Source: Polyangiaceae bacterium
GTDB taxonomy: Bacteria > Myxococcota_A > Polyangia > Polyangiales > Polyangiaceae
NCBI GenBank assembly: GCA_023150915.1
Contig: JAKLKA010000040.1
Location: forward strand, 1-51,765
Direction: 5' to 3'
Length of the DNA: 51,765 nucleotides
Shown here: one piece after another, positions 18,908 to 33,277 of the stretch
How the letters are laid out: each line of letters starts with the position of its first letter
Numbering within the stretch: the stretch's first letter is position 1
Position numbers and translations under genes: made by a program
Notes under the pieces: model-generated
What the model was told of the DNA's origin: nothing
Databases searched by the model: none
What the model saw: the letters and a program-made list of their open reading frames with translations, nothing else

Positions 18908-20512
18908 TCACGATGCCGTGATGTCGACCACCAGCTGCGGCGCGTAGGCGATGTCACCGCGTGCGATGGTCGAACGCGCGCGGGCGCCGGCCGCCGCCAG
19001 CGCGCCCTCGATGACGCCGACCAGCCACAGGCGCGCCGCCGTGGCCAGCGGCTCCACGTCGGACACGCGCAAGGTCGAGACGGGGTGCCCTTCTTCCAGG
19101 CTCCAGCTGCCGAAGGAATACAGGCGCGACAGCGCGGGGTGGATGCGCCGGAGCAACACCGTGACCTCGCCCGGGCGCAGGGCGCTCTTGAGCACGGCGC
19201 CGAGCTCACCGCCCACGGCGTGAGCCCCCGCAGTGCGAGCCCACCCCATGTTCCCCATGGCCGCATCACGGGTCACGGCGGCCGCGTAACGGTTGAGCAG
19301 CTCGACGTCGTACAGCACGATGGCCTGCATCGACCCGTATTCGAGCTCGCGCCGCAGCTCCGACGGCAGCTGGGCCAGCACCCGCCCGCGTGCGTCTTCG
19401 CCGAAGGTCTGCCGGACGTAGTGATCGATGGAGCGCAACGCCAGGCCTCGGACCTGCCGGCCTTCGTTCGCGGCCGGGCTGGCAACGGCCCGGACCGCGC
19501 CGCCCGGGGGGGTCCAGCCCGCGGGAAACGACGGGCGCGAAGGCACCGTGGGCGGCGCCGTGGGCGGGATCGGGCGCTCTCCGGTGGCGTCCCGCTGCTT
19601 GCCCAGGTGCTGCTCGGGCCGGACCAGCTCGAGCAGCGCGCGCTCGCGGTCTTCCGTCGAAGGGACCAACCGCTCGAGGTCGGCAGCCAGATCCCGGGCG
19701 CTCTGGTACCGCTCGGTGATGTGCTTGGCCAGCGCCCGGTCGACGATGGCTTGCAGCGTGGGGTCGTCGGGGCCCCCACGTTCTTTCAGCGACGGCGCCC
19801 GCTGGTGGGCCACCTTGTACGCGGTGGCCACCGCCGTGGGCGCGTGGAACGGCCTCGACCCCGTGAGCAGCTCGTACAGGACGACGCCGGCGCCGAACAC
19901 GTCGCTGCGGCCGTCGATCGCAAGCTCGCCGTTGGCCTGCTCGGGTGAGAGATAGTCGGGAGTGCCCATCACCACGCCCGTGCTGGTGCGCGCTGCAGCG
20001 CCGTTCGGCCAGAGCACCTTGGCGACGCCGAAGTCCAGAAGCTTGACGCGAACGTCGCGCGGGCCTTCGACGGAGTAGAAGATGTTCCCAGGCTTGATGT
20101 CGCGATGCACGACCCCGGTGTCGTGCGCCAGTTGCAGCGCGTGCAGCACCGGCAAGATGGTGGCCAGCGCCGCCGGCACCGAGAACCGTCCATGATCGAA
20201 CAGGCGCCGGCCCGCGCTCTCGCCCAGCAAGAAGTCCATCACCAGGTAAGGGCCGAGCTCGGATTGGCCGGCCTCGTGGACGTGGACGATACCGGGGTGG
20301 TTCATCCGCAGACCCGAGTGGGCCTCTTGGAACAGCCGCGCGACGAAGGCCGGATCTTCGAGCTTGTGCGGCAAGAGCAGTTTGACCGCCACCACGCGCC
20401 CGGTGCTGATCTGCTCCGCGCGATAGACCTCGCTCATGCCCCCGACGCCGATCCGCTCGAGCAGTCGATACTTGTTGGCCACGATCCGGCCGGGGGTTGA
20501 AACTGCGCTCAT
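18908..20512 (-). CDS. Ser/Thr protein kinase with C-terminal DUF2378/TIGR02265-like domain
   Basis: 534 residues, no membrane segment. The kinase domain (about 15-280) is complete: IGVGGMSEVY (P-loop), VAVKLLLPH (K44), HRDIKPGN (D138, N143), DFGVAKV (D160) and GTPDYLSPEQ. A Pro-rich linker follows, then a domain of about 180 residues starting VRGLALRSIDHYVRQTFG and including HPALSRLYSFGSWSLEEG. Its layout parallels the stand-alone protein at 40334-40897 and the myxobacterial DUF2378/TIGR02265 family; that match is from memory and by eye. It is divergent from the membrane protein gene at 20600. The start is the only ATG just before the conserved fold. Confidence 0.9.
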   Translation of the reverse strand: MSAVSTPGRIVANKYRLLERIGVGGMSEVYRAEQISTGRVVAVKLLLPHKLEDPAFVARLFQEAHSGLRMNHPGIVHVHEAGQSELGPYLVMDFLLGESAGRRLFDHGRFSVPAALATILPVLHALQLAHDTGVVHRDIKPGNIFYSVEGPRDVRVKLLDFGVAKVLWPNGAAARTSTGVVMGTPDYLSPEQANGELAIDGRSDVFGAGVVLYELLTGSRPFHAPTAVATAYKVAHQRAPSLKERGGPDDPTLQAIVDRALAKHITERYQSARDLAADLERLVPSTEDRERALLELVRPEQHLGKQRDATGERPIPPTAPPTVPSRPSFPAGWTPPGGAVRAVASPAANEGRQVRGLALRSIDHYVRQTFGEDARGRVLAQLPSELRRELEYGSMQAIVLYDVELLNRYAAAVTRDAAMGNMGWARTAGAHAVGGELGAVLKSALRPGEVTVLLRRIHPALSRLYSFGSWSLEEGHPVSTLRVSDVEPLATAARLWLVGVIEGALAAAGARARSTIARGDIAYAPQLVVDITAS

Positions 20513-20599
20513 CAGGGACAACTGCGGCGGTCTATAGTCCGCTCCGGTGTCGAGTCTATCAGGTTCGGCTGGCAGAGTGGCCGGCCGGAGCGCCCAGAA

Positions 20600-21610
20600 A
20601 TGGCCGCCGCGCTGCGTGTAGTGAAACTGGAGCCAGCGGCGCTGGCGACGCCGGATTTCTGCGCGTGCTGCTCGGCCACCGCGGCAACCTCCCGGTGCGA
20701 GCGGCTCGGTGCCCGCGAAATCGTGGTGCCTTATTGCGTGCGCTGCCTCAGGCATGCCAGCGCTGCGGGGACCCGGAATCTCGCGGCCGCGGTCGGATCG
20801 TGCCTGCTGGCCGTGACGCTGGCCCTGGCCCTGCCCTTGGCCTGGCCGTCGGCGTCGCTGTGGGTGCACGTGCTTTCAGTCGTCGCGGTCTCGTGCCTTC
20901 CGCTCGTGCCGCGCGCGTTCCGGCCGCGCATCGAGCCCGGGCACACCGCGGCCGAGCGTGCTGCGTGGTGGCGATCGGAGCGCGAGCTGTGCTGCACGAA
21001 CCCGAGGTTCGCCGAGGCGCTCTCGGCCCAGTCGGGAGCCGAGGTGTTCGAGCCGTCGCGCGGCGCCGAGCCGCGCTTCTTCGTCTGGCTGGTGGCGGGG
21101 CCGCTGGTGGCCGCGGTGGGCGCTCCCAGCGGCTGGATGTTCCACCACCCGGTGGTCCGGGTCCTGAACCTGACGGACGCCCGAATGACGGTCTCGATCG
21201 ACGGTCGAGCCGTCGCGTCGCTCGAGCCGAGCAGCGCCGAAAACCCGACCGCTGGCGTCGAGCTGCGCCTTCCGAGTGGAGACCACTCCATGACCACGGC
21301 GGTGCTCGGCGGCGAGGCGGTGGGGACCCGGGTGACGCTGCGGAGCGGGGCGACCCACTTGTTCGCGCCGCAGAGCGTGGGCCAGTGCTTCTGGCTGGAA
21401 GAGACGGGCTACGGGCGCCACGGCGGCCGCGGCACGGTGGTGCTGCCGCTGGCGGGCGCGGACGGCTTTTGGGTCTTGCCGCGCAGGGTGGATACTTGGT
21501 TTGCGCCGAATCCGCCGGCGACAGGCCCCGACCAGCGATCGTCGGGTGGCATTCTAGTGGCGCTCAGGCAGTCGCCCTGTGCGCGGGCTCCGCGGGGAAC
21601 GGCGCCGTGA
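20600..21610 (+). CDS. membrane protein with N-terminal four-Cys motif and PEGA-like region
   Basis: 336 residues. The N-terminus has FCACC and, 30 residues on, CVRCL, a possible zinc-binding pair. Two adjacent hydrophobic segments follow (about 65-100). After a soluble stretch, another hydrophobic segment (about 155-175) precedes VRVLNLTDARMTVSIDGRAV and VELRLPSGDHSM, which resembles PEGA-type beta-sandwich repeats (DG, then P-x-G-x-H). It is divergently arranged with a Ser/Thr kinase (87 bp between starts), so shared regulation is possible. Function unknown; I place it only as a myxobacterial-type hypothetical. Confidence 0.7.
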   Translation: MAAALRVVKLEPAALATPDFCACCSATAATSRCERLGAREIVVPYCVRCLRHASAAGTRNLAAAVGSCLLAVTLALALPLAWPSASLWVHVLSVVAVSCLPLVPRAFRPRIEPGHTAAERAAWWRSERELCCTNPRFAEALSAQSGAEVFEPSRGAEPRFFVWLVAGPLVAAVGAPSGWMFHHPVVRVLNLTDARMTVSIDGRAVASLEPSSAENPTAGVELRLPSGDHSMTTAVLGGEAVGTRVTLRSGATHLFAPQSVGQCFWLEETGYGRHGGRGTVVLPLAGADGFWVLPRRVDTWFAPNPPATGPDQRSSGGILVALRQSPCARAPRGTAP

Positions 21611-21612
21611 GT

Positions 21613-21640
21613 TTGCGACGCGGGACGATTTGGCTATAGA
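21613..21640 (+). promoter_or_regulatory. candidate promoter of grpE (near-leaderless)
   Basis: TTGCGA (21613-21618), 16-bp spacer, TATAGA (21635-21640), only 8 nt before the GTG start. The transcript would begin at about the start codon. No CIRCE inverted repeat for HrcA is visible. Confidence 0.5.
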
Positions 21641-21648
21641 ACTGCGTC

Positions 21649-22251
21649 GTGACTGACGACAGCTCGGAGACCCAGCCAGCGGCCGAACCGGTGGAGCCCG
21701 CCGGCGAGAGCGATCCCGCGGAACCGGCCGCAGAGGCCCCGGAGGCGCCGCCTCCCGATCCCGTCGCGGAGGCGAAGGCAGAAGCCGCCAAGCTGAAAGA
21801 GCAGCTTCTGCGGACGGCCGCAGACTTCGACAACTTCCGGAAGCGAACCCGGCGCGAGCTGACGGATGCGGAGATCCGTGGGCGCGAAGACCTGCTCAAG
21901 GACATGCTGCCGGTGTTCGACAACCTCGAGCGGGCCATGCAGCACGCGGACTCGGCAACCGATGTTCAGGCCTTGGCCGACGGCATTCGGATGGTTTCGC
22001 GCCAGTTCTTGGACACCCTGGGCAAGCTGGGCATCGAGCGCGTGGTGGCGGTGGGCTCACCGTTCGATCCCTCGCTACACGAGGCCATCCAGCAGCTCGA
22101 ATCCGCGGATCACGCCGCGGGTGTGGTGCTGGCGGAAGTGCAGGCGGGCTATCGGCAGGGCGACCGACTGCTGCGCCCGGCGATGGTGGTGGTGTCCAAA
22201 GGGCCCCCGCCGCCCGCGCCACCCGCTGCCGAGGCCGAAGAACCCAGCTGA
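21649..22251 (+). CDS. grpE: GrpE nucleotide exchange factor
   Basis: 200 residues. An acidic Ala/Pro/Glu-rich N-terminal tail (1-45) is followed by the long helix [20 protein letters not shown] leading into FRKRTRRE, and a C-terminal beta domain containing [11 protein letters not shown], as in GrpE (usual motif F-x-P-x-x-H-x-A). It releases ADP from DnaK, whose gene follows 45 bp downstream. Translation starts at a GTG. Confidence 0.95.
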
Positions 22252-22296
22252 TTGTCGGCTTCCCCGCGGCGCGCGACGGGGTAAGCTCGGCCCGGC

Positions 22297-24135
<1,839 letters not shown>

Positions 24136-24142
24136 AAGAACG

Positions 24143-27100
24143 ATGTCCGAAGCCGAGCCCGTGCGGACCGTCGGCCGTTACCAACTGGTCGAGCGCATTG
24201 GCGAGGGCTCGCTGGCCGAAGCCTGGCGCGCAAAGAGCTTCGGCGTCGAGGGTTTCGAGAAGACGCTGGTCGTCAAGCTGCTCTTGCCAGAGCTGGCTCG
24301 CGACGAGAAGGTCGTGTCCCGCTTCGTTCGCGAGGCGCAACGCGCCGTCCGCCTGAGCCACGCCAACGTGGTGCAGGTCTTCGACCTGGGCCGCGTCGAC
24401 GAAGGCGGCAGCCCTCAGCTCTATCTGGCGATGGAGCACGTCGCGGGGCGAAGCCTCGAGAGCGTGATGAAGCCCTGGCGAGAAACGCGAGCCCCCGCCC
24501 CGCTCGGGCTTTCGCTGTACGTCGCCTCGGAGATCGCGAAGGCGCTCGACCACGCCCATCGGCGCCGCGACGAGAAGTTCGAGCTGCTCGGGGCGGTGCA
24601 CGGCGATCTTGGCGCCGAGAACGTGCTGCTTTCCTGGGATGGCGAGGTCAAGGTCTCGGACTTCTGCGTGATGCAGGCCCTGTGGGAGCGGGGGGACGCG
24701 CGCCGACGCCACGAAGACCCGGTCCTCTCGCCCAAGCTCTGCCACGCGAGCCCCGAGCTGGCCCTGGGCCGGCCGCTGTCCCCGGCCAGCGACCTCTTCG
24801 CTCTGGGCGTGCTCTTGTACGAGCTGCTCTCGGGGTGTCACCCCTTCCAGGGCGCCACGCCGCGCGAGACCTGGGCGGCCCTGGGCAAGGGTGCTTGGCC
24901 CACGCTGACCGAGCGCCGACCCGACCTGCCCCAAGGGGTGCGAGCGCTGGTCGACCGGGCGCTGTCGGTGGATCCAAGCGCCCGGCACGCGTCGAGCGGC
25001 GAGCTGTACGAGCTCTTGGTGGCCGAGCGCTACGTCGCGGGTGCACGCTACGCCGCCGAAGATCTGGCCGAGCTCCTCGAGACCCGACGGGTGGCTCCGG
25101 TCAGCCTGCCGGATGCCGCCGAGGACTTCCTGGAGGTCACGCGCTCGGACGTCCGCCGGCCGCCCGAGCTGCCACCCGAGCTGCCACCCGAGCTGCCGCC
25201 CGCGCGCGAGCCGAGCATCTTGGGGACGCTCTCGGAGTTGAAGCACGAGCGCGAGCTGTCGGTGCTGGTCACCCGCCTCGGCGCCCGCGGCGCAAGGCCC
25301 GAAGTGCAGGGCCATCTGCGCGAGATCTTCACGCGCTACGGTGGGCGCCTGCTCGGCGGCGATTCGACCGACGTGGCCGCGGTCTTCGGCCTGGGCGCCG
25401 CCGACACGCGCGACACCGAGAACGCGGTGCGCGCCGGGCTGGTGGCGGTGCGAGCGCACTCGGCCACCAGCGATCTGACGGTGGTGGTCGATCTGGCGCG
25501 GCTGACCGTCGACGACGCGGGAACCCTGGTCGAAGACGACCGGGTCGCGGCGGCAACCACGAGCGCGCGCCGGCTGGCGGCGGCGTCGGTGCGCCGGGTG
25601 GTGGTCTCTTCCGACGCGGCGCGGAGCATTCGCGGACAGTTCGAGCTGGCGCCCACCTCCCCCGGCTCGAAGATCTGGGTGGTGGGGGAAGGTCGCTCGG
25701 TCGAAGCGGGCGTGCTCAAGTTCGTCGGCCGCAAGAACGAGCTCAGGAAGCTGGGCGATGCGTTGAAGGTGGCCGGCCGGCGCGAGCTGCAGGTGATCGG
25801 CCTGGTGGGGCCCCACGGGGTCGGCAAGACACGCCTGGTGCACGAGGCCGTCGCGCGCATCTCGCGCGGCTCGTTCAACATCGGTTGTCACATTGCGCGT
25901 TGCCTGCCGCGCGGGCGTGGCGAGCCCGAGGGCGCACTGATCGCGATGCTGCGCGCGATGTGCGGCGTGCGCGAGGGCGACCCGCCGGCAGTGGTCGCCG
26001 CCGTCGAGCCGCGCCTGCGGGCGCTGGGCCTGATCGACGTCGAGGTCGCCGCCGTGCTGGGTGCGCTGGGGGCCGCCAGCGGCGGCGAAGCTTCGGCAGG
26101 CACCCTGGCCAGCGCCGTGGCACGCATGTTTGCCAGCCTGGCAGAGGACCGGCTGCACATCTTCGTGTGGGACGATGCCCACGAGCTGGACGACGAGACG
26201 GGCGCCGCGCTGGGGGGTATTGCCGCGCGCCTGGCGACCAGCCGCGTGCTCTTGGTGTTCGCCGGCCGGCCCCGGGTGGACTCGCCGTGTCGCACCCTGC
26301 CGGGCTATTCCGAGATCGCCGTCGACGACCTGGACGAAGACGACGTTCGCCGGCTGATCGCCGCGCGTCTGGGGGTGGAAGAAGTGCCGGCAGAGCTCTG
26401 CACCTTCGTGATCGAGCGAGCAGGCGGACATCCCATGTTCGTGGACGAGCTGCTGCGCGAGGCCCTCGAGTCGGGCGCCATCACGGTGCAGGGTGGCTCG
26501 GTGGTCCGCCTGGCACTCGACGGTGTGCTGGCCGTTCCTCGACCGCTACGCACGCTGATCGTCGACCGGGTGCGCCGGTTGCCCGAGCGCGAGCGCGACC
26601 TCTTGGTGGCGGCGGCCATCCTGGGTGCCCCCGTGGACTCGTCGGTGCTGGCGGCAATGCTGGACCTTCCCATCGGCAAGGTCAGTGCGCTGACCGACTC
26701 GCTGGTCGAGCACCGACTTCTGGTTCGCGAGGACCCGGTCTCGCTGGGATTCGGCACGACCCTCTTGCCCGAGGTGCTGCTGGGCGAGCTCGAGCCCGAC
26801 GCCCGCGCCGAGCTGCACCGCAGCGCGGCCAATGCCTACCCCATGGTCCTGGCCGAACGCACCGAGCAAGAGGCGTCGCGCATCGCGCGTCACTTCGCCG
26901 AAGCCGGCGAGCGCACGCGTGCGGCGGGCTTCTATGCCACGGGCGCTTACTATCACCTGGGTGCCCAGCGGCTGGAGCGCGCAGCGGCAGACTTCACCCG
27001 CGCCATCGACCTGTCCGACTGGCGCACGCAGGCGCCCACCGAGCTTGCCGAGTGGGTCAACGCGCTGGGTCGCGCGGTGCGGCACGTGCGCGCCGGCGCC

Positions 27101-28033
27101 AAGATCCCCGACGTGGTGCAGCGCCTGTGGCTTCATCTTCAATCGGACTCGCGCTTCGACCCGGAGCTGGCGGTGCGCATCAGCATCGAGCTTTCGCTGA
27201 TCCTCGGCGCGCTCAGTCGGTACAAAGACGCGCTGCGCCTGCTGGCGAGCGCGGTGACCCGTGCCGAAGCCTGGCCCGAGGTCCGGCAGACCGCGCTCAT
27301 GGCCGAGGGGGAGCTGGCTGCGCGACAGGGTGAATTCAAGGTGGCACTCTCGGCCCTGGAGCGCGCCAAAGGCCTGGCGCTGGGCGACGCCAAGGACGAA
27401 CATCGTCGTCTGCTGGCCACGGCCCAGGCGGCGGGCGCCGCCGGTGAGCACGCGCTTGCGCTGGATGCGCTCGACCGAGCAAGCCGGCTCTTCCCGGACG
27501 GTGAAGAGCCCGTGCTCGCCCTGGAGCGCGCCAAGGTTCGCGGCCTGATCCACGGCTTCCGCGGCGACTGGGCGCGCTGCGCGGAAGAGAGCGCCGACGC
27601 CGCCGAGCAAGCCCGCGCCCTGGGCTTGCCCCACGAGGTGGCCATTCACCTGCACAACCAGGGCGACGCACTGATGCGCGTCGACGAGCTGCCACGGGCG
27701 TACGCGGTCTTGACGCGTTCGTTGTCGGTGGCCGAGCGGATTGGCGCCGAGCGACTGGTGAACCTGAACCAGATGATGCTGGCCTATCTGGACGCGCTGA
27801 ACGGGTCGGATCCGGCGCAGAAGGCGCTGGGGCAGAAGCTGGCCCACGCAGAGGCGCAAAAGTGGACCTGGGACGCGCTCAGCGGGCGCACGCTCCTCGG
27901 TCGCCTCTTGGCCCGGCGCGGCGACGCAGTCGGCGCTCGCCGCGAGCTGTCGCTGGCCAAGCGCATGGCCCAGGCAACGGCGAACAAGCTGGTGCTCGAC
28001 GACTGCGAGCGCGCGCTGGCCGACCTGAGGTAG
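24143..28033 (+). CDS. multidomain signalling protein: degenerate kinase, cyclase-like, AAA ATPase, TPR
   Basis: 1296 residues. Kinase-like domain (10-290) keeps the Lys (VVKLLLPE, K45) but has HGDLGAEN for HRDxKxxN and DFC for DFG, so activity is doubtful. A short PELP repeat follows (about 342-353). Residues 370-525 resemble a class III nucleotide cyclase fold without recognisable metal residues. An AAA/STAND-type ATPase follows (FVGRKNEL, Walker A GPHGVGKTRL about 556, Walker B IFVWDDAHELDD about 672). The C-terminal 400 residues are helical TPR-like repeats. The layout recalls cyclase/AAA/TPR and PknK-type regulators. The ATG at 24143 lies 7 nt after dnaK; an in-frame ATG at 24113 would overlap dnaK by 23 nt. 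Confidence 0.85.
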   Translation: MSEAEPVRTVGRYQLVERIGEGSLAEAWRAKSFGVEGFEKTLVVKLLLPELARDEKVVSRFVREAQRAVRLSHANVVQVFDLGRVDEGGSPQLYLAMEHVAGRSLESVMKPWRETRAPAPLGLSLYVASEIAKALDHAHRRRDEKFELLGAVHGDLGAENVLLSWDGEVKVSDFCVMQALWERGDARRRHEDPVLSPKLCHASPELALGRPLSPASDLFALGVLLYELLSGCHPFQGATPRETWAALGKGAWPTLTERRPDLPQGVRALVDRALSVDPSARHASSGELYELLVAERYVAGARYAAEDLAELLETRRVAPVSLPDAAEDFLEVTRSDVRRPPELPPELPPELPPAREPSILGTLSELKHERELSVLVTRLGARGARPEVQGHLREIFTRYGGRLLGGDSTDVAAVFGLGAADTRDTENAVRAGLVAVRAHSATSDLTVVVDLARLTVDDAGTLVEDDRVAAATTSARRLAAASVRRVVVSSDAARSIRGQFELAPTSPGSKIWVVGEGRSVEAGVLKFVGRKNELRKLGDALKVAGRRELQVIGLVGPHGVGKTRLVHEAVARISRGSFNIGCHIARCLPRGRGEPEGALIAMLRAMCGVREGDPPAVVAAVEPRLRALGLIDVEVAAVLGALGAASGGEASAGTLASAVARMFASLAEDRLHIFVWDDAHELDDETGAALGGIAARLATSRVLLVFAGRPRVDSPCRTLPGYSEIAVDDLDEDDVRRLIAARLGVEEVPAELCTFVIERAGGHPMFVDELLREALESGAITVQGGSVVRLALDGVLAVPRPLRTLIVDRVRRLPERERDLLVAAAILGAPVDSSVLAAMLDLPIGKVSALTDSLVEHRLLVREDPVSLGFGTTLLPEVLLGELEPDARAELHRSAANAYPMVLAERTEQEASRIARHFAEAGERTRAAGFYATGAYYHLGAQRLERAAADFTRAIDLSDWRTQAPTELAEWVNALGRAVRHVRAGAKIPDVVQRLWLHLQSDSRFDPELAVRISIELSLILGALSRYKDALRLLASAVTRAEAWPEVRQTALMAEGELAARQGEFKVALSALERAKGLALGDAKDEHRRLLATAQAAGAAGEHALALDALDRASRLFPDGEEPVLALERAKVRGLIHGFRGDWARCAEESADAAEQARALGLPHEVAIHLHNQGDALMRVDELPRAYAVLTRSLSVAERIGAERLVNLNQMMLAYLDALNGSDPAQKALGQKLAHAEAQKWTWDALSGRTLLGRLLARRGDAVGARRELSLAKRMAQATANKLVLDDCERALADLR
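25166..25201 (+). repeat. 12-bp tandem repeat coding Pro-Glu-Leu-Pro linker
   Basis: Three copies of gagctgcc(a/g)ccc (25166-25177, 25178-25189, 25190-25201), in frame, form the linker between the kinase-like and cyclase-like domains. Confidence 0.75.
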
Positions 28034-28049
28034 ACTTTCTCGTCGCGAG

Positions 28050-28838
28050 ATGTCACGTATTCGAGTCCACCTCGACACTCCCACCGGGAAGCAGCTCTTC
28101 CCCCTCGGGAGCTACACCATCGGTCGCGCCGACGAGTGTGACGTCGTGTTGGCGAGCGGTCGCTGCTCGCGCCACCACGCGCGGCTGGTCGTCTCGGAAG
28201 CCCAGGCAACCCTCGAAGATCTGGCGAGCGCCAACGGTACCTTCGTGAACGGCGCCCGGCTCACCAGCGCCCAGGTGCTGAGCAACGGGGACTTCGTGGT
28301 GGTGGGTGGCGAGATCGGGATCGAGGTATCGATCGAGATCGAAGCGGCGCCGTCGGAGCCGCACATTCGCGAGCGCTCGCCCAGCCGCACGGAAGAGAGT
28401 GGCCCGCACCTGCCACCCACGGCGCGGGTCTCGATGGACGAAGTGCTCGAGGCCGCGGCAGATCACCTGATCTCGAACGGGCAGGCCGAGCTGGCAGAGC
28501 GCACGCTGGGGCGCTGGCTCGAAACGGCGATGGCGGCAGCCCAGGGCGGAGAGTGGCGCGAGGACACGCTGATCGACATGTCGGTCCGCTGCGCCGCCAA
28601 GTTGGCCCGGGCGCTGCCGTCGCGCCGCTGGGTGGATTACGTGCTCGAGCTCTCGAGCGCGCTTTCGCGGCCGATGAGCGAGGATCAGGCCAATCTGTTG
28701 AACGACGCCATCGGAAGCATCGGCGTCTCGCCCGAACCCCTGGGCCGGTACATCGACATGCTGCGCGCGCTGTCGGCCCATGCAGACATCGCGCGGGCGA
28801 TGGACGAGGCCGAAGCCTGGCGCGAATGCTGTGGCTGA
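28050..28838 (+). CDS. FHA-domain protein
   Basis: 262 residues. The N-terminal FHA domain (about 1-95) has the phosphothreonine-binding signature: GSYTIGRADECDVVL (Gly-Arg), CSRHHARL (Ser-x-x-His) and SANGTFVNGARL (Asn-Gly). A helical domain of unknown family follows (about 130-262). FHA proteins bind phosphothreonine made by Ser/Thr kinases. The direct neighbour is a kinase-like protein that may be inactive, so the true partner could be elsewhere. The gene starts 16 nt after the previous stop and overlaps the PrmA-like gene by 8 nt. Confidence 0.9.
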   Translation: MSRIRVHLDTPTGKQLFPLGSYTIGRADECDVVLASGRCSRHHARLVVSEAQATLEDLASANGTFVNGARLTSAQVLSNGDFVVVGGEIGIEVSIEIEAAPSEPHIRERSPSRTEESGPHLPPTARVSMDEVLEAAADHLISNGQAELAERTLGRWLETAMAAAQGGEWREDTLIDMSVRCAAKLARALPSRRWVDYVLELSSALSRPMSEDQANLLNDAIGSIGVSPEPLGRYIDMLRALSAHADIARAMDEAEAWRECCG

Positions 28839-29661
28839 CCCCCGGGTGATCGAGCTCGGTTTTGCCGTGCGACCTCGCGACGTCGCCGCGGTGTCGGCGC
28901 GGCTGTTCGCTGCCGGGGCGGGCGCGGTGGAAGAGCGTGAAGGTCCGACGCTGGTGGTCTGGGTCGAGAGCGAGTCGGCCGCCAAGGCGCTGATCTGCGC
29001 GGCGGGCGTCGAGGTCACGCGCCGCGCGCTCGATCCGAGCTGGCAGACCGAGTGGCTGCGCCACCTGGGCCCGGTCGCCCTCACCCAGCGGATCGTGCTG
29101 CAGCCCACCGGAAACGCGACCAAGGTCCCGCGCGGCAAGCGGCGCCTCTGGTTCGCGCCGGATCAGGCCTTCGGCGACGGCAGCCACGCCACCACGCGGC
29201 TCGCGGCGCGCGCCACCGAGAGGCTGTGTCGCGAGCTCTCACCCGCGCGCGTGCTCGACGTGGGAACGGGCAACGGAGTGTTGGCGCTGGTGGCGGCGAT
29301 CTCGTGCCGCGGGCGCGTGCTGGGGCTGGACGTGGATCCGGCGGCGCTGGGCGCAGCCCGGAAAAACGCCACCAAGAATCGCCTCTCGGATCGCTGCAAG
29401 TTCTCGCGGCGACCGCTCGCCCAGGTCCGCGGCCGCTTCGACTTGGTGCTGGCCAACATCGAGGCCTGGGTGCTGCTCGAGCTCGCCGGTGACCTCGCAC
29501 GGGTGACGGCCCCGGCCGGGCACCTGGTGCTGTCGGGACTTCTGTGCGAGCGCGGCGACGAGCTGCTGGCGCGGCTGCGGGCCGAGGGCCTGTCAGAGGT
29601 CGGCCGAGATGAAGAAGACGGCTGGCTCGGCCTCGTGCTACGACCCTCGGCCCGAGCATGA
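28831..29661 (+). CDS. prmA: PrmA-like ribosomal protein L11 methyltransferase
   Basis: 276 residues from the GTG at 28831, which overlaps the FHA gene by 8 nt. Motifs fit PrmA: FAPDQAFGDGSHATTRL (usual FGTGxHxTT), VLDVGTGNGVLALVAA (SAM-binding motif I), GLDVDPAALGAARKN (motif II) and FDLVLANIEAWVL (motif IV; PrmA usually NILA or similar). The N-terminal substrate-recruiting domain is present but diverged. It would methylate L11 with SAM. Because of that divergence, another protein substrate is possible. Confidence 0.82.
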   Translation: MADPRVIELGFAVRPRDVAAVSARLFAAGAGAVEEREGPTLVVWVESESAAKALICAAGVEVTRRALDPSWQTEWLRHLGPVALTQRIVLQPTGNATKVPRGKRRLWFAPDQAFGDGSHATTRLAARATERLCRELSPARVLDVGTGNGVLALVAAISCRGRVLGLDVDPAALGAARKNATKNRLSDRCKFSRRPLAQVRGRFDLVLANIEAWVLLELAGDLARVTAPAGHLVLSGLLCERGDELLARLRAEGLSEVGRDEEDGWLGLVLRPSARA

Positions 29662-32594
29662 CGGAAGAAAACGGGAAACCGGAGGCCTCCGAGCCCGAGG
29701 CACCCGCCGCGGAGCCGGCGGAGTCGGCAGGGCCGGTGGCCGAAGCGGCCGCCCGGGCGGGCGACAACCGTCCGCACTGGGCACGCGGGGGCATCATCGC
29801 GCTGATCGGCGCTGCGGCGCCGTTCTTGCTCATGGCCACCACTCAGCGCTGGTCGTTCAGCGTGCCGGTCGCCGTGGTCGGCGGGCTGGTGGCGTTCTTC
29901 GGCATCGCCGACCTGCTGGGCACTTTCGACGACGCCGAGGCCAAGGTCAGCGCGCGTCCCGAAGGCGCGAAGCTGAGGCCCGCGGTGCTCGAGCTGATCA
30001 CTGCCGGGGCCGCCTGGTTCGTCGCGTTGCGCCTGGCCGTGGCGGGCGGGCTGCCCTTCCCCATCCTGAGCGCCGCCGTGCTGGTCACGGGCACCTTCCT
30101 CTGGATGGTCACCGCGGCCTTCCGCACCGCGCAGGCGCTGGGCGCGTGGCAGCTCGACGAGGCCGGCGCCGAGCGGCCGTTGCTGCGCCGTCACGGGTTC
30201 TGGCTGGTCACGCTCACCACCCTGCTCTACCTGCCGCTGCTCGGCAGCTACTCGCTCTCGGACCCGTGGGAGACGCACTACGGCGAGGTGGCCCGCGAGA
30301 TGCTGGTGCGCGACGACTGGATCAGTCTGTGGTGGGCCCAGGACGGCTGGTTCTGGTCGAAGCCGATCCTCGACTTCTGGATGCAGGGCGTCTTCTTCTC
30401 GGCGCTGGGCGTGCGGTACATGCCCGACCAGATGCTGTCCAGCGTCGCCTCGGGGCGCTTTCCCCAGCCCGAATGGGCGGCGCGGGTCGGCGTCTTCTTG
30501 CTGACCGTGCTCGCGGTGTATTTCTTGTACAAGGGCGTGGCGAAGGCGTGCGGGCGGCGCGCCGGGTTCATCGGCGGCGTGGTGCTCACCACCATGCCTT
30601 ACTGGTTCTTGATCGCGCACCAGTCGATGACCGACATGCTCTACGTGGCGCCGCTGTCCGCCGCGATGGGGCTGGCGCTCTTGGCGTTCCACACCGACCC
30701 AGATGAAGAGGCCCGCGTCTACGAGATCGCGGTCGGGCGGTGGAAGCTGCGTTTCTCGCTGTGGCACCTGGTGTTCGGCGCGATCGTGCTCCTGGTGCTG
30801 CCGCAGGTGCTCTACCTGCTCTCGCGCAACCTCACGCTGCACCTGAGCGGCTCGCGCGGGTTCCGCTGGCACCTAGATCAGTTCTTCTCGGGTTCGGGCG
30901 GGGGCAACTGCGGGCTGCCGGGCAACGAGGCGTGCAAGAACCAGCTGCCGATCAACAAGGCATTTCAACCCTGGCACGCGGCGCTGCTCTGGTCGGGCGT
31001 GGCCGGGGTGTTGCTGTGGATCAACCGCGGCGAGCGGCGGCTCTCGCGCCTCTACTTCCTGGCGGCGTGGGTGTTCGTAGCCCTGGCCACCATGGGCAAG
31101 GGCGCTCCGGGTCTGGTGCTGCCCATCGCCATCATCGGCGCGTACGTCGCGGCCACCCGTCGCTGGCGCGATCTGGAGCGGGTCGAGGCGCTGAGCCTGG
31201 GCTTGATCGTGGCCTGCGTGGCGCTGCCCTGGTTCGTCCAGATGTACCTGCGTCACGGCCAGCCATTCACCGATCGGCTGCTGTTCCACGACATGTACAA
31301 ACGCGCGTTCGTGCACGTGCACGACACCAACGTCGGCGACGACGTGAGCTTTCGCTATTACATCTGGCAGCTGGGTTACGGGCTGTTCCCGTGGACCGGG
31401 CTCGCGGTCGCCGGCCTGGGCTGGTGGCTGCGCCGTCCGAACGATCGTAGCGACGCCCGGGGGGACGCCGGCGCGTTCTTGGCGCTGTGGTTCGTGACGG
31501 CGTTCGGCATGTTCACCATCACGCTGACCAAGTTCCACCACTACGTGTTCCCGGTGGTTCCGCCCACGGCCATGCTGGTGGGCTTGATGCTCGATCGGGC
31601 CCTGGGCGAGCGCCAGCTGCCGAGCGGGCGCTCGCTGGCGATCACCGTCGCCGGGCTGGGCGCCGCCGTGACGCTGGCGGTGTACGGAGCGATGCGCTTC
31701 TTCCCCGGGGCCATCAGCGGCCGTTTGGTCGGCGACAAGCCGCCGGCGCCGGTGAAGTGGCTGGGGTGGGTGTGCATCGCGCTGGCGCTGGGCATCGGCT
31801 ACTGGGTGATCCGCCGCGCGGGGGCGCCCGGGGCCGAGGCGCCCGCCAGTGGCCGCGGCAGCGCACCCGGCGAGGCGTTCGCGCTGTCCGGTGCGGCCGA
31901 CCCAAGCCCCGAGGGCACGGCTCTGGCAAGCGTGGTCGACACGCGCTTCTACGACGGCCTGGTGATCGGCGCCGTGGCCATCGCGTCGGCCTTCGTGCTG
32001 GTGATTGCGGGCCGCGACATGTTCTACACCATGCAGGGTGACATCGAGGGGCAAGCCCGGCTGATGCACCTGTTCACCTACAACTATCGCCGCCCCTGGC
32101 CGACCTCCCTCGATTTCAAGGCCATCCTCACCGCCTTCACCTTCGTGCCCGCGGCCCTCAGTCTGCTGATCGCCGTCCCGCGCCTGCGCGCCCACGCCAC
32201 CGTGGCACTGCTCGCGGCCAGCGTGCTGTGGGCCGCCTGGGGCGTGAACGTCTACCTCTACAAGGCGGCGCCGCACTGGGGGCAGCGCGAGACGCTGCTG
32301 GCCTATTATCGCGATCGTCAGAGCCCGGACGAGCTTCTGATCTCGTACCAGATGAACTGGAAGGGCGAGAACTTCTACACCGGCAACAAGACGCCCGCCT
32401 TCGTGTCGTCAGGGGCGAAGTTCAAAGAGTTCATCGACGAGCAGAAGAAGAAGGGCGTCACCACCCTCTACTTCGCCACCGAGCACGGGCGGTCGCACTC
32501 GCTCAAGGGCGAGATCGGCGAGCACAAGAGCTTCGATGCCATCACGGACGAGAAGCTGAACAACAAGTTCTTCATCGCGCGCGTGCGGTTCTAG
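29658..32594 (+). CDS. GT39-family (ArnT/PMT-like) membrane glycosyltransferase
   Basis: 978 residues, long for the family. After a soluble acidic N-terminus of about 40 residues come many membrane helices. The extracytoplasmic loop LSDPWETHYGEVAREMLVRD followed by DDWISLWW and WSKPILDFWMQG matches the ArnT/PMT donor-binding loop (DE-x-x-Y, EM, W, KP-x-L-x-x-W); here the usual acidic pair is Asp-Pro-Trp-Glu. It should transfer a sugar from a polyprenyl-phosphate donor to a lipid or protein in the periplasm. The ATG overlaps the prmA stop (ATGA). A hairpin lies after the stop. Confidence 0.88.
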   Translation: MTEENGKPEASEPEAPAAEPAESAGPVAEAAARAGDNRPHWARGGIIALIGAAAPFLLMATTQRWSFSVPVAVVGGLVAFFGIADLLGTFDDAEAKVSARPEGAKLRPAVLELITAGAAWFVALRLAVAGGLPFPILSAAVLVTGTFLWMVTAAFRTAQALGAWQLDEAGAERPLLRRHGFWLVTLTTLLYLPLLGSYSLSDPWETHYGEVAREMLVRDDWISLWWAQDGWFWSKPILDFWMQGVFFSALGVRYMPDQMLSSVASGRFPQPEWAARVGVFLLTVLAVYFLYKGVAKACGRRAGFIGGVVLTTMPYWFLIAHQSMTDMLYVAPLSAAMGLALLAFHTDPDEEARVYEIAVGRWKLRFSLWHLVFGAIVLLVLPQVLYLLSRNLTLHLSGSRGFRWHLDQFFSGSGGGNCGLPGNEACKNQLPINKAFQPWHAALLWSGVAGVLLWINRGERRLSRLYFLAAWVFVALATMGKGAPGLVLPIAIIGAYVAATRRWRDLERVEALSLGLIVACVALPWFVQMYLRHGQPFTDRLLFHDMYKRAFVHVHDTNVGDDVSFRYYIWQLGYGLFPWTGLAVAGLGWWLRRPNDRSDARGDAGAFLALWFVTAFGMFTITLTKFHHYVFPVVPPTAMLVGLMLDRALGERQLPSGRSLAITVAGLGAAVTLAVYGAMRFFPGAISGRLVGDKPPAPVKWLGWVCIALALGIGYWVIRRAGAPGAEAPASGRGSAPGEAFALSGAADPSPEGTALASVVDTRFYDGLVIGAVAIASAFVLVIAGRDMFYTMQGDIEGQARLMHLFTYNYRRPWPTSLDFKAILTAFTFVPAALSLLIAVPRLRAHATVALLAASVLWAAWGVNVYLYKAAPHWGQRETLLAYYRDRQSPDELLISYQMNWKGENFYTGNKTPAFVSSGAKFKEFIDEQKKKGVTTLYFATEHGRSHSLKGEIGEHKSFDAITDEKLNNKFFIARVRF

Positions 32595-32635: not shown

Positions 32636-33121
32636 TCAGCCCAGGCGCCCGAGCAGGTACCAGGCCGCCGCGGTCAGCGTGGCGAGCCACACCGTGTGCA
32701 AGACCCGTCCGATCAGGGCCCTTCGCCGCCGCACTCGCGCTTCGTACCGCTCGCGCGCCTCGTGTGCTTCGGTGATCGCGCGGAGCACGGGACCGTTCTC
32801 CGCCGTGGCGCGCCGGCTCATCCGCCGGGAAGCGACCCCGATTGCCCGGGCAGCCGCCACCCGGGCCCTCCCCTCGCGGCCCAGTCGGTCGTCCTCGGCG
32901 CTGCGCTCGGGCAGACGCTTCGCTTCCAACTCGGTGTCGTAAGCGCTGCGGCGCTCGGGGTCTCCGAGCGTCTCGAACGCCTCTCGCATCTGGCGCAGTT
33001 GGCTCTCGAGCGCGATGACCCGGCCTCGATGGCGAGCGACAGTCCGCCGCCGGTAGGCCCGGGCAATCTGGTCGCGACTGGCCAGCGGCGAGACCCCGAG
33101 AAGCGCGTAGTAATCGACCAT
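32636..33121 (-). CDS. J-like domain membrane protein lacking the HPD motif
   Basis: 161 residues from MVDYYALLGV. Residues 1-62 follow the J-domain pattern (YYALLGVSPLASRDQIARAY, then LRQMREAFETLGDPERRSAYD), but the HPD loop that stimulates Hsp70 is HRG (31-33). The J-like fold is followed by a charged Arg-rich helix and one C-terminal hydrophobic segment (about 140-158), so it is probably tail-anchored. Without HPD it should not activate DnaK ATPase in the usual way; it could bind DnaK or another partner passively. An ATG at 33145 would add eight residues (MLHCAIRK) that do not belong to the fold. A -10-like TACACT lies upstream. Confidence 0.75.
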   Translation of the reverse strand: MVDYYALLGVSPLASRDQIARAYRRRTVARHRGRVIALESQLRQMREAFETLGDPERRSAYDTELEAKRLPERSAEDDRLGREGRARVAAARAIGVASRRMSRRATAENGPVLRAITEAHEARERYEARVRRRRALIGRVLHTVWLATLTAAAWYLLGRLG

Positions 33122-33277
33122 CTTCCGGATCGCGCAGTGTAACACGAAGCACGGACGGGGCGGGTCGAGTCTTGGCGCGTGGACACGCCCGAACGGAGGA
33201 CTCTCGGGCCCGCCGCCCGTTTCGCGGGGTGACCCGCAACGTGGCCGCGGGGTTGTGGCGACCGCCGCGCGGCCGGG

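Follow-up and report, generated by a model that had tools for sequence, protein, structure and literature searches.

A putative STAND-class signalling ATPase with an unusual kinase domain behind dnaK in Polyangiaceae

Introduction

STAND proteins are described in PMC4381067 as ADP-bound resting monomers in which an inducer on a repeat-built sensor brings about nucleotide exchange and the assembly of a scaffold, and the same paper places PknK-type kinases in this class. A second body of background concerns chaperone genes in myxobacteria. In M. xanthus, the grpE-dnaK2 pair is lowered, not raised, by heat, and it prefers membrane proteins (PMC11019930). Here, we focus on a gene that stands directly behind grpE and dnaK in a Polyangiaceae bacterium and encodes a protein of 1296 residues. 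It was studied in a stretch of 51,765 nucleotides (assembly GCA_023150915.1, contig JAKLKA010000040.1), the whole of which is referred to below as the window.

The protein is real and conserved, and its class is known; its effector is unusual and eroding, and its position behind dnaK is derived. The best reading is a signalling ATPase of the STAND class, arranged as in PknK, with a kinase, a cyclase-like domain, an NTPase, a winged helix and a TPR sensor in that order. Its relatives form a natural series, from an intact kinase to the clear loss of catalytic residues, within a single STAND protein whose NTPase motifs and repeat sensor are retained, so that what a STAND kinase does without its kinase becomes testable by the comparison of orthologues. 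The derived link, kept in 40 genomes, joins a signalling ATPase to grpE and dnaK and in many of them also to dnaA. No paper on this gene, or on a kinase behind dnaK in myxobacteria, was found among the matches listed for titles and abstract openings in the open-licence literature, and the available part of PMC8265645 makes no mention of a kinase, an operon, Sorangium, or a neighbor, downstream or adjacent gene.

Domain architecture of the 1296-residue protein

The original prediction, made from the letters of the window, had placed an open reading frame (ORF) of 1296 residues 7 nucleotides after dnaK, and this was borne out by the ORF check: the stop of dnaK lies at 24135 and the ATG of the ORF at 24143. 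An alternative GTG start at 24113 would lengthen the protein by 10 residues to 1306. The ORF is more than a chance reading frame because 87 of the 108 genomes of the family have homologues of residues 351-1296 (query from the window, E ≤ 1e-20). With a Sorangium-type query at the same threshold, homologues of the part after the kinase were found in 137 of 183 genomes of the order, the weakest matches at this threshold being possible paralogues. The features of the gene are as follows.

24143..28033, + strand: 1296-residue protein, read as kinase / cyclase-like / STAND NTPase / winged helix / TPR (ORF, Pfam, AlphaFold model, Foldseek)
24179..24988, + strand: Hanks-type kinase domain, residues 13-282 (Pfam Pkinase, E 2.4e-24)
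24599..24622, + strand: catalytic loop HGDLGAEN, H153-N160 (translated ORF, homologue alignment)
24659..24667, + strand: DFC replacing DFG, residues 173-175 (translated ORF, homologue alignment)
25253..25672, + strand: putative class III cyclase-like domain without the metal-binding Asp pair, about residues 371-510 (profile match, TIGR03903, alignment)
25718..26257, + strand: AAA_16 / STAND NTPase core, residues 526-705 (Pfam AAA_16, E 1.6e-13)
26420..26791, + strand: winged-helix / arm segment, about residues 760-883, boundaries approximate (AlphaFold model of residues 520-1296)
26792..28030, + strand: TPR superhelix, about residues 884-1296 (AlphaFold model, VIA-align matches to TPR proteins)

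The NTPase holds a Walker A motif, GPHGVGKT, at residues 556-563 and the Walker B residue D677, and just C-terminal of its core lies G762-P764, the GxP motif that is a mark of STAND NTPases. Walker A and an acidic Walker B are kept in 86 of 86 aligned homologues (Asp in 85 and Glu in one at Walker B), just as the original prediction had judged the AAA Walker motifs intact, and Gly 762 and Pro 764 are each found in 85 of the 86; these counts, taken on the long alignments, leave out one homologue of 294 residues (L140). For residues 520-1296, an AlphaFold model with a mean confidence score (pLDDT) of 69.2 consists at its C-terminal end of a long TPR-like array of helix pairs. In a Foldseek search with this model, 6mfv_A came first (E 1.9e-12, 778 alignment columns with gaps counted); it is a STAND protein of solved structure that has a TPR sensor. 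The TPR model also matched Tom71 with an Hsp70 peptide, which is general TPR similarity and was not used.

Profile searches recovered Pkinase and AAA_16, as had been expected for a kinase-like and AAA protein, and on the window protein itself neither a TPR nor a cyclase model rose above the Pfam cut-off. Among aligned family members, TPR_12 matches 19 of 36.

The kinase domain: residues kept and lost

Judged by its residues, the kinase of the window protein appears unusual and not clearly dead. The original prediction had pointed to the loop HGDLGAEN and to DFC, both of which read as claimed, and had concluded that the enzyme is dead; this conclusion does not hold, since five catalytic residues are kept, namely K45 (the VAIK Lys), E64 (the helix C Glu), D155 (the HxD Asp), N160 (the catalytic-loop Asn) and D173 (the DFG Asp). 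Replaced are the HRD Arg by G154, the DFG Gly by C175 and the DLKPxN Lys by G157. The last of these is not telling, because each of the 47 examined homologues that lie away from dnaK has Ser at this site (20/20 from other families and 27/27 unlinked ones from the window's own family). Seven of the unlinked homologues carry HLD for HRD.

For comparison, 47 of about 144 other kinase places in the genome were sampled, a figure obtained from 147 matches by subtracting the window and two matches outside the kinase domain, with 150 of 260 candidates scored and more kinases possible. The loop was matched in 45 of the 47, with a pattern that could find only loops with H.D....N. HRD was present in all 45; the Lys site held Lys in 22 and Ser in 20; and the later motif was DFG in 42 and DLG in one, with two pattern artefacts.

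Such residues raise the possibility of a still active non-RD Ser/Thr kinase that is switched on by STAND assembly and whose odd motifs alter regulation only. The five core residues are shared by the window protein and two congeners, and Ser at the DLKPxN Lys site, seen in 20/20 homologues of other families and 20/45 matched kinases of the genome, takes the edge off one of the three replacements. Against an active enzyme stands the replacement of both the HRD Arg and the DFG Gly, whereas 45/45 matched kinases of the genome keep HRD. The further evidence on this point comes from relatives, which are called linked below where the gene adjoins dnaK on the same strand.

Of the linked copies, 8 of 40 have lost the catalytic Asp, as have 1 of 27 unlinked copies of the family and 0 of 20 copies from other families; all five core residues are kept in 30/40, 26/27 and 20/20, respectively. 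Mapped on the DnaK tree, the state of the catalytic Asp takes six changes by parsimony, of which well supported branches force at least three. In the eight linked copies without it (L049, L052, L058, L065, L069, L074, L075 and L085, with the alignment unsure for L069, L074 and L085), the helix C Glu is replaced or unaligned in 8/8, and the VAIK Lys and the DFG Asp are kept in 7/8. The kinase is deviant in 12 of the 13 linked copies that belong to the window's DnaK clade. As a separate observation, the residue pattern of the copies without the Asp resembles that of pseudokinases that may still bind ATP.

Constraint was also compared between domains. The ratio of kinase to NTPase identity averages 1.50 for other families, 1.30 for unlinked copies of the family, 1.24 for the Sorangium-like linked clade and 1.02 for the window clade (20, 24, 15 and 11 sequences; only pairs below 70% NTPase identity counted, and pairs not independent). 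Left out of these ratios were L058 and L065 from the window clade, L069, L074, L075 and L085 together with eight near-copies from the Sorangium-like linked clade, and the unlinked L140, L157 and L164. Reduced constraint on the kinase in the window clade and relatives without the catalytic Asp outright thus speak against an active enzyme. For it speaks the ratio of non-synonymous to synonymous substitution rates (dN/dS) in the window's genus, represented by three sequences, where the kinase gives 0.15-0.24. Taking both sides together, we consider an active kinase possible, at rather less than an even chance.

In the same three sequences, dN/dS is 0.04-0.12 for the winged helix and TPR part, 0.08-0.31 for the NTPase and 0.13-0.38 for the cyclase-like region. 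The sensor end is therefore the most constrained part within this genus, and values of 0.04-0.38 over all domains indicate a protein under purifying selection.

The cyclase-like region

The assignment of the region between kinase and NTPase as cyclase-like is weakly suggested by two matches. A profile of 12 family members found the adenylate cyclase 2w01 as its best match, at a weak E of 0.024, and TIGR03903, the model of the TOMM kinase/cyclase fusion, aligns over residues 391-1098 below its cut-off. Pfam gave 33 families for 36 family members, and the 25 of these that were listed include no cyclase model.

A metal site had been described as not visible in the original prediction, and Asp is indeed absent from both putative metal positions of the window protein, which hold R378 and T409; these columns were picked by hand alignment to the cyclase motif. 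Among the 86 homologues, Asp at 378 falls outside the eight commonest letters (at most 3/86), and Asp at 409 occurs in 8/86. Absence of the site is therefore a trait of the whole family and not of the window protein alone. The first reading of the gene was corrected here, as it was for the kinase that is not clearly dead.

The match to TIGR03903 raises the question of a TOMM kinase/cyclase fusion protein belonging to a peptide-modifying cluster, the more so as the model matches 35 of 36 family members at E ≤ 0.001. Its score on the window protein is 163.9 bits against a cut-off of 705.75, on which ground TOMM membership was rejected. No TOMM enzyme was matched among eight scanned neighbours, the remainder of the window not having been scanned for one, and we find this origin scarcely credible.

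Linkage to dnaK

The two genes that precede the 1296-residue protein are the following.

21649..22251, + strand: grpE (Pfam GrpE, E 2.6e-48)
22297..24135, + strand: dnaK (Pfam HSP70, TIGR02350)

The grpE gene is the single PF01025 place in the genome, which is rated 98.8% complete and has several HSP70 genes. The genome has at least three long HSP70 genes, the dnaK of the window among them; against the E. coli-type DnaK structure 2kho, this dnaK scores 703 bits, compared with 747 bits for the HSP70 copy at C286. With one GrpE match and several HSP70 genes, the DnaK paralogues of this genome may share one exchange factor.

How general the adjacency is was asked of dnaK loci fetched from the family, 93 places from 106 genomes with a match, of which 85 have at least 1.5 kb behind dnaK. 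In 39 of the 85, a homologue adjoins dnaK on the same strand at a distance of -86 to 240 nucleotides, with a four-base overlap in five of the 39. The adjacency that the original prediction reported is therefore real and common to 40 genomes, including that of the window. In addition, 27 homologues of the family, a subset of those listed, were fetched from other places, and none of these loci contains dnaK or grpE; 24 of the 27 have at least 2.9 kb upstream, and L138, L140 and L151 have less than 1 kb. Outside the family, the gene and the best dnaK were compared by hand in 40 genomes with both places listed and were together in 0/40, lying on different contigs in 39 and about 2.1 Mb apart on one contig in G180. 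Twenty loci fetched from other families, 18 of them with at least 1.4 kb upstream, likewise have neither dnaK nor grpE. The original prediction had named in advance orthologues unlinked to dnaK as evidence that would tell against it, and this is what was found, both in other families (0/40 genomes linked) and in the window's own (27 homologues elsewhere). Linkage to dnaK is derived, and adjacency is seen only within the window's family.

The history of the linkage was read from trees. In both the tree of the NTPase-TPR part (quick method, 70 of 86 sequences; L058, L065, L069, L074, L075 and L085 left out as long-branched or short, together with ten near-copies) and the DnaK tree (94 sequences), linked copies fall into two clades, the window clade and a Sorangium-like clade, and unlinked lineages stand between these clades or next to them. 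Linkage requires a minimum of 2 changes on the first tree and 5 on the second. Trees alone allow either one or two gains. Behind the gene, dnaA is found within the fetched stretch in 28 of 39 linked loci, up to about 3.3 kb away; where the gene is not adjacent to dnaK, 12 of 54 loci have dnaA close to dnaK. Together with this shared neighbour, the trees favour a single gain of linkage, followed by losses, rather than two gains.

In the DnaK clade that holds the window, 16 of 29 loci have no homologue behind dnaK (11 of the 16 with at least 1.5 kb visible). In 13 of those 16 genomes the window query found no match at E ≤ 1e-20, and G070, G097 and G098 gave weak matches only; in the family at large, such a match is missing from 9 of 61 good genomes. 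Combined with the 12 of 13 deviant linked kinases of the same clade, this could mean that the gene is decaying toward loss and that its place behind dnaK is passive, with nothing specific sensed. Long intact ORFs in most linked loci, the Walker motifs kept in 86/86 and the dN/dS values in all domains within the genus speak against decay, and we judge it unlikely.

Two side observations concern loci in which the gene is not next to dnaK. In L051, L064, L067, L089 and L096, an unrelated ORF of about 236-320 residues, alike among the five and lipoprotein-like by eye, lies behind dnaK and in four of the five precedes dnaA. In G081-G083, unlinked homologues (L152, L153) lie some 22 kb into contig 1, and the one DnaK match that these three genomes gave at the chosen threshold is of a second type, 56-57% identical.

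From the place behind dnaK, the original prediction also suggested that the protein may sense the load on the chaperone or stress. Co-expression with dnaK is likely because of the spacing, and no terminator-like site was found between dnaK and the ORF. A scan for sigma-70 sites over 20400-30000 gave no promoter-like site, an uninformative outcome since 0.3 were expected by chance. Allowing up to 3 mismatches, the CIRCE pattern was not matched anywhere in the window; nor, with up to 5 substitutions allowed, was it found within about 1.5 kb to either side of L204 and L206, two further dnaK genes of the genome. The absence of CIRCE says little because it is also absent there.

A dedicated sensor of chaperone load or stress, acting with DnaK and GrpE, would fit the tight same-strand spacing in the 39 fetched loci with its five overlaps, the lack of a terminator-like site, and an operon that holds the genome's only GrpE match. 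It sits poorly with the homologues unlinked to dnaK in other families and, many of them, in the window's family, and with the comparable grpE-dnaK2 of M. xanthus, alike by gene order, being reduced by heat (PMC11019930); the missing CIRCE element is a weak point against it, as two other dnaK genes also have none. We consider such a dedicated sensor very unlikely, and the sensing of chaperone load by the 1296-residue protein is conjectural. A TPR clamp for the DnaK tail was dropped as a candidate, the C-termini of 12 linked and 6 unlinked DnaK proteins having no special tail.

A model for the protein

Starting from the observed domains, motifs, conservation and linkage pattern, the protein can be pictured as a STAND ATPase of PknK-like layout with a weak or inactive kinase, whose output is made by clustering and recruitment. 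In the rest state, the NTPase would be ADP-bound and the protein monomeric. An inducer, probably a protein or peptide, would bind the C-terminal TPR superhelix, upon which the switch would open, ATP would replace ADP and the protein would multimerise. The assembly would then gather the N-terminal kinase and cyclase-like domains. The ancestral effector was presumably a working HRDxSPQN/DFG kinase, and in the lineage of the window this kinase would have been partly freed from constraint to become a non-RD, DFC domain of weak activity or none. The output would probably be clustering or recruitment and not strong phosphorylation. The gene appears to have come behind grpE-dnaK within the window's family, in many genomes with dnaA behind it, and is probably co-expressed with the chaperone; any contact with DnaK itself is conjectural. 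We give this reading as a whole an even chance of being correct. It retains part of the ATP-driven scaffold of dead enzymes that the original prediction had envisaged, namely the STAND-like NTPase and TPR parts with their Walker motifs, and gives up the dead kinase, which was not supported.

Several observations weigh against this reading. The match to 6mfv_A has low TM-scores of 0.34 and 0.39, and VIA-align returned TPR and other helical-repeat proteins, mainly over the TPR part, with 6mfv_A not among them. Parts of the modelled NTPase lie below a pLDDT of 50, and the model of residues 1-530, with a mean pLDDT of 41.7, tests neither the kinase nor the cyclase fold. The synonymous rate (dS) behind the dN/dS values is 0.56-0.92, near saturation. 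Full release of the kinase is at odds with the share of columns at 90% identity or above, which in the window clade (13 sequences) is 20% for the kinase and 19% for the NTPase, the other 73 sequences having 34% and 14%. Finally, with all five core residues in place, the kinase of the window may phosphorylate normally.

A bolder version of the model would hold that a STAND kinase was captured by the grpE-dnaK operon of Polyangiaceae-like myxobacteria and turned, independently and more than once, into a pseudokinase scaffold, with the TPR sensor reading the state of the chaperone or its clients and so driving the ATP-dependent assembly. This we regard as quite unlikely.

Neighbouring genes

One further gene follows at once on the 3' side.

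28050..28838, + strand: FHA-domain protein, 3' of the 1296-residue gene (Pfam FHA, E 3.4e-19)

As a phospho-reader partner this protein was rejected, its position behind the gene being seen in the window only. The FHA gene overlaps prmA (28050-29661), a pair also present in G021 (L046), where about 4.6 kb and opposite-strand genes separate it from the kinase gene. No other fetched linked locus shows an FHA gene, several of these loci ending soon after the homologue. The FHA-domain protein is probably not part of the system.

On the other side of the chaperone genes, a second kinase is encoded near grpE (18908-20869, - strand) with a normal HRDIKPGN/DFG core, and a similar kinase gene lies on the same side of grpE in G021. 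The window also encodes a small J-domain protein (32636-33145, - strand; Pfam DnaJ, 41.5 bits), in which YRRRTVARHRGRV replaces the HPD tripeptide, so that the usual mode of DnaK stimulation is not expected of it.

Comparison with known systems

Of the systems described, the PknK-type STAND kinases and MalT come closest in layout, likewise joining an effector to a P-loop NTPase with GxP, a winged helix and a helical-repeat sensor, the effector of PknK being a kinase. This likeness to PknK is by class description, as given in PMC4381067, and not by PknK sequence. In contrast to both, the window protein has an extra cyclase-like domain between kinase and NTPase, the HGD and DFC motifs, and a place behind dnaK. 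The TOMM fusion model TIGR03903 could be aligned over 391-1098 with a score far under its cut-off. The best Foldseek match over the model from NTPase to TPR is 6mfv, which differs in its 14% identity, its low TM-scores and its chain of 641 residues. At the level of the locus, M. xanthus MXAN_6672-MXAN_6671 has grpE directly 5' of a second dnaK, as in the window (PMC11019930). Compared by gene order, the M. xanthus pair is described as bicistronic in a genome with two GrpE (PMC11019930), whereas the window's genome has one GrpE match.

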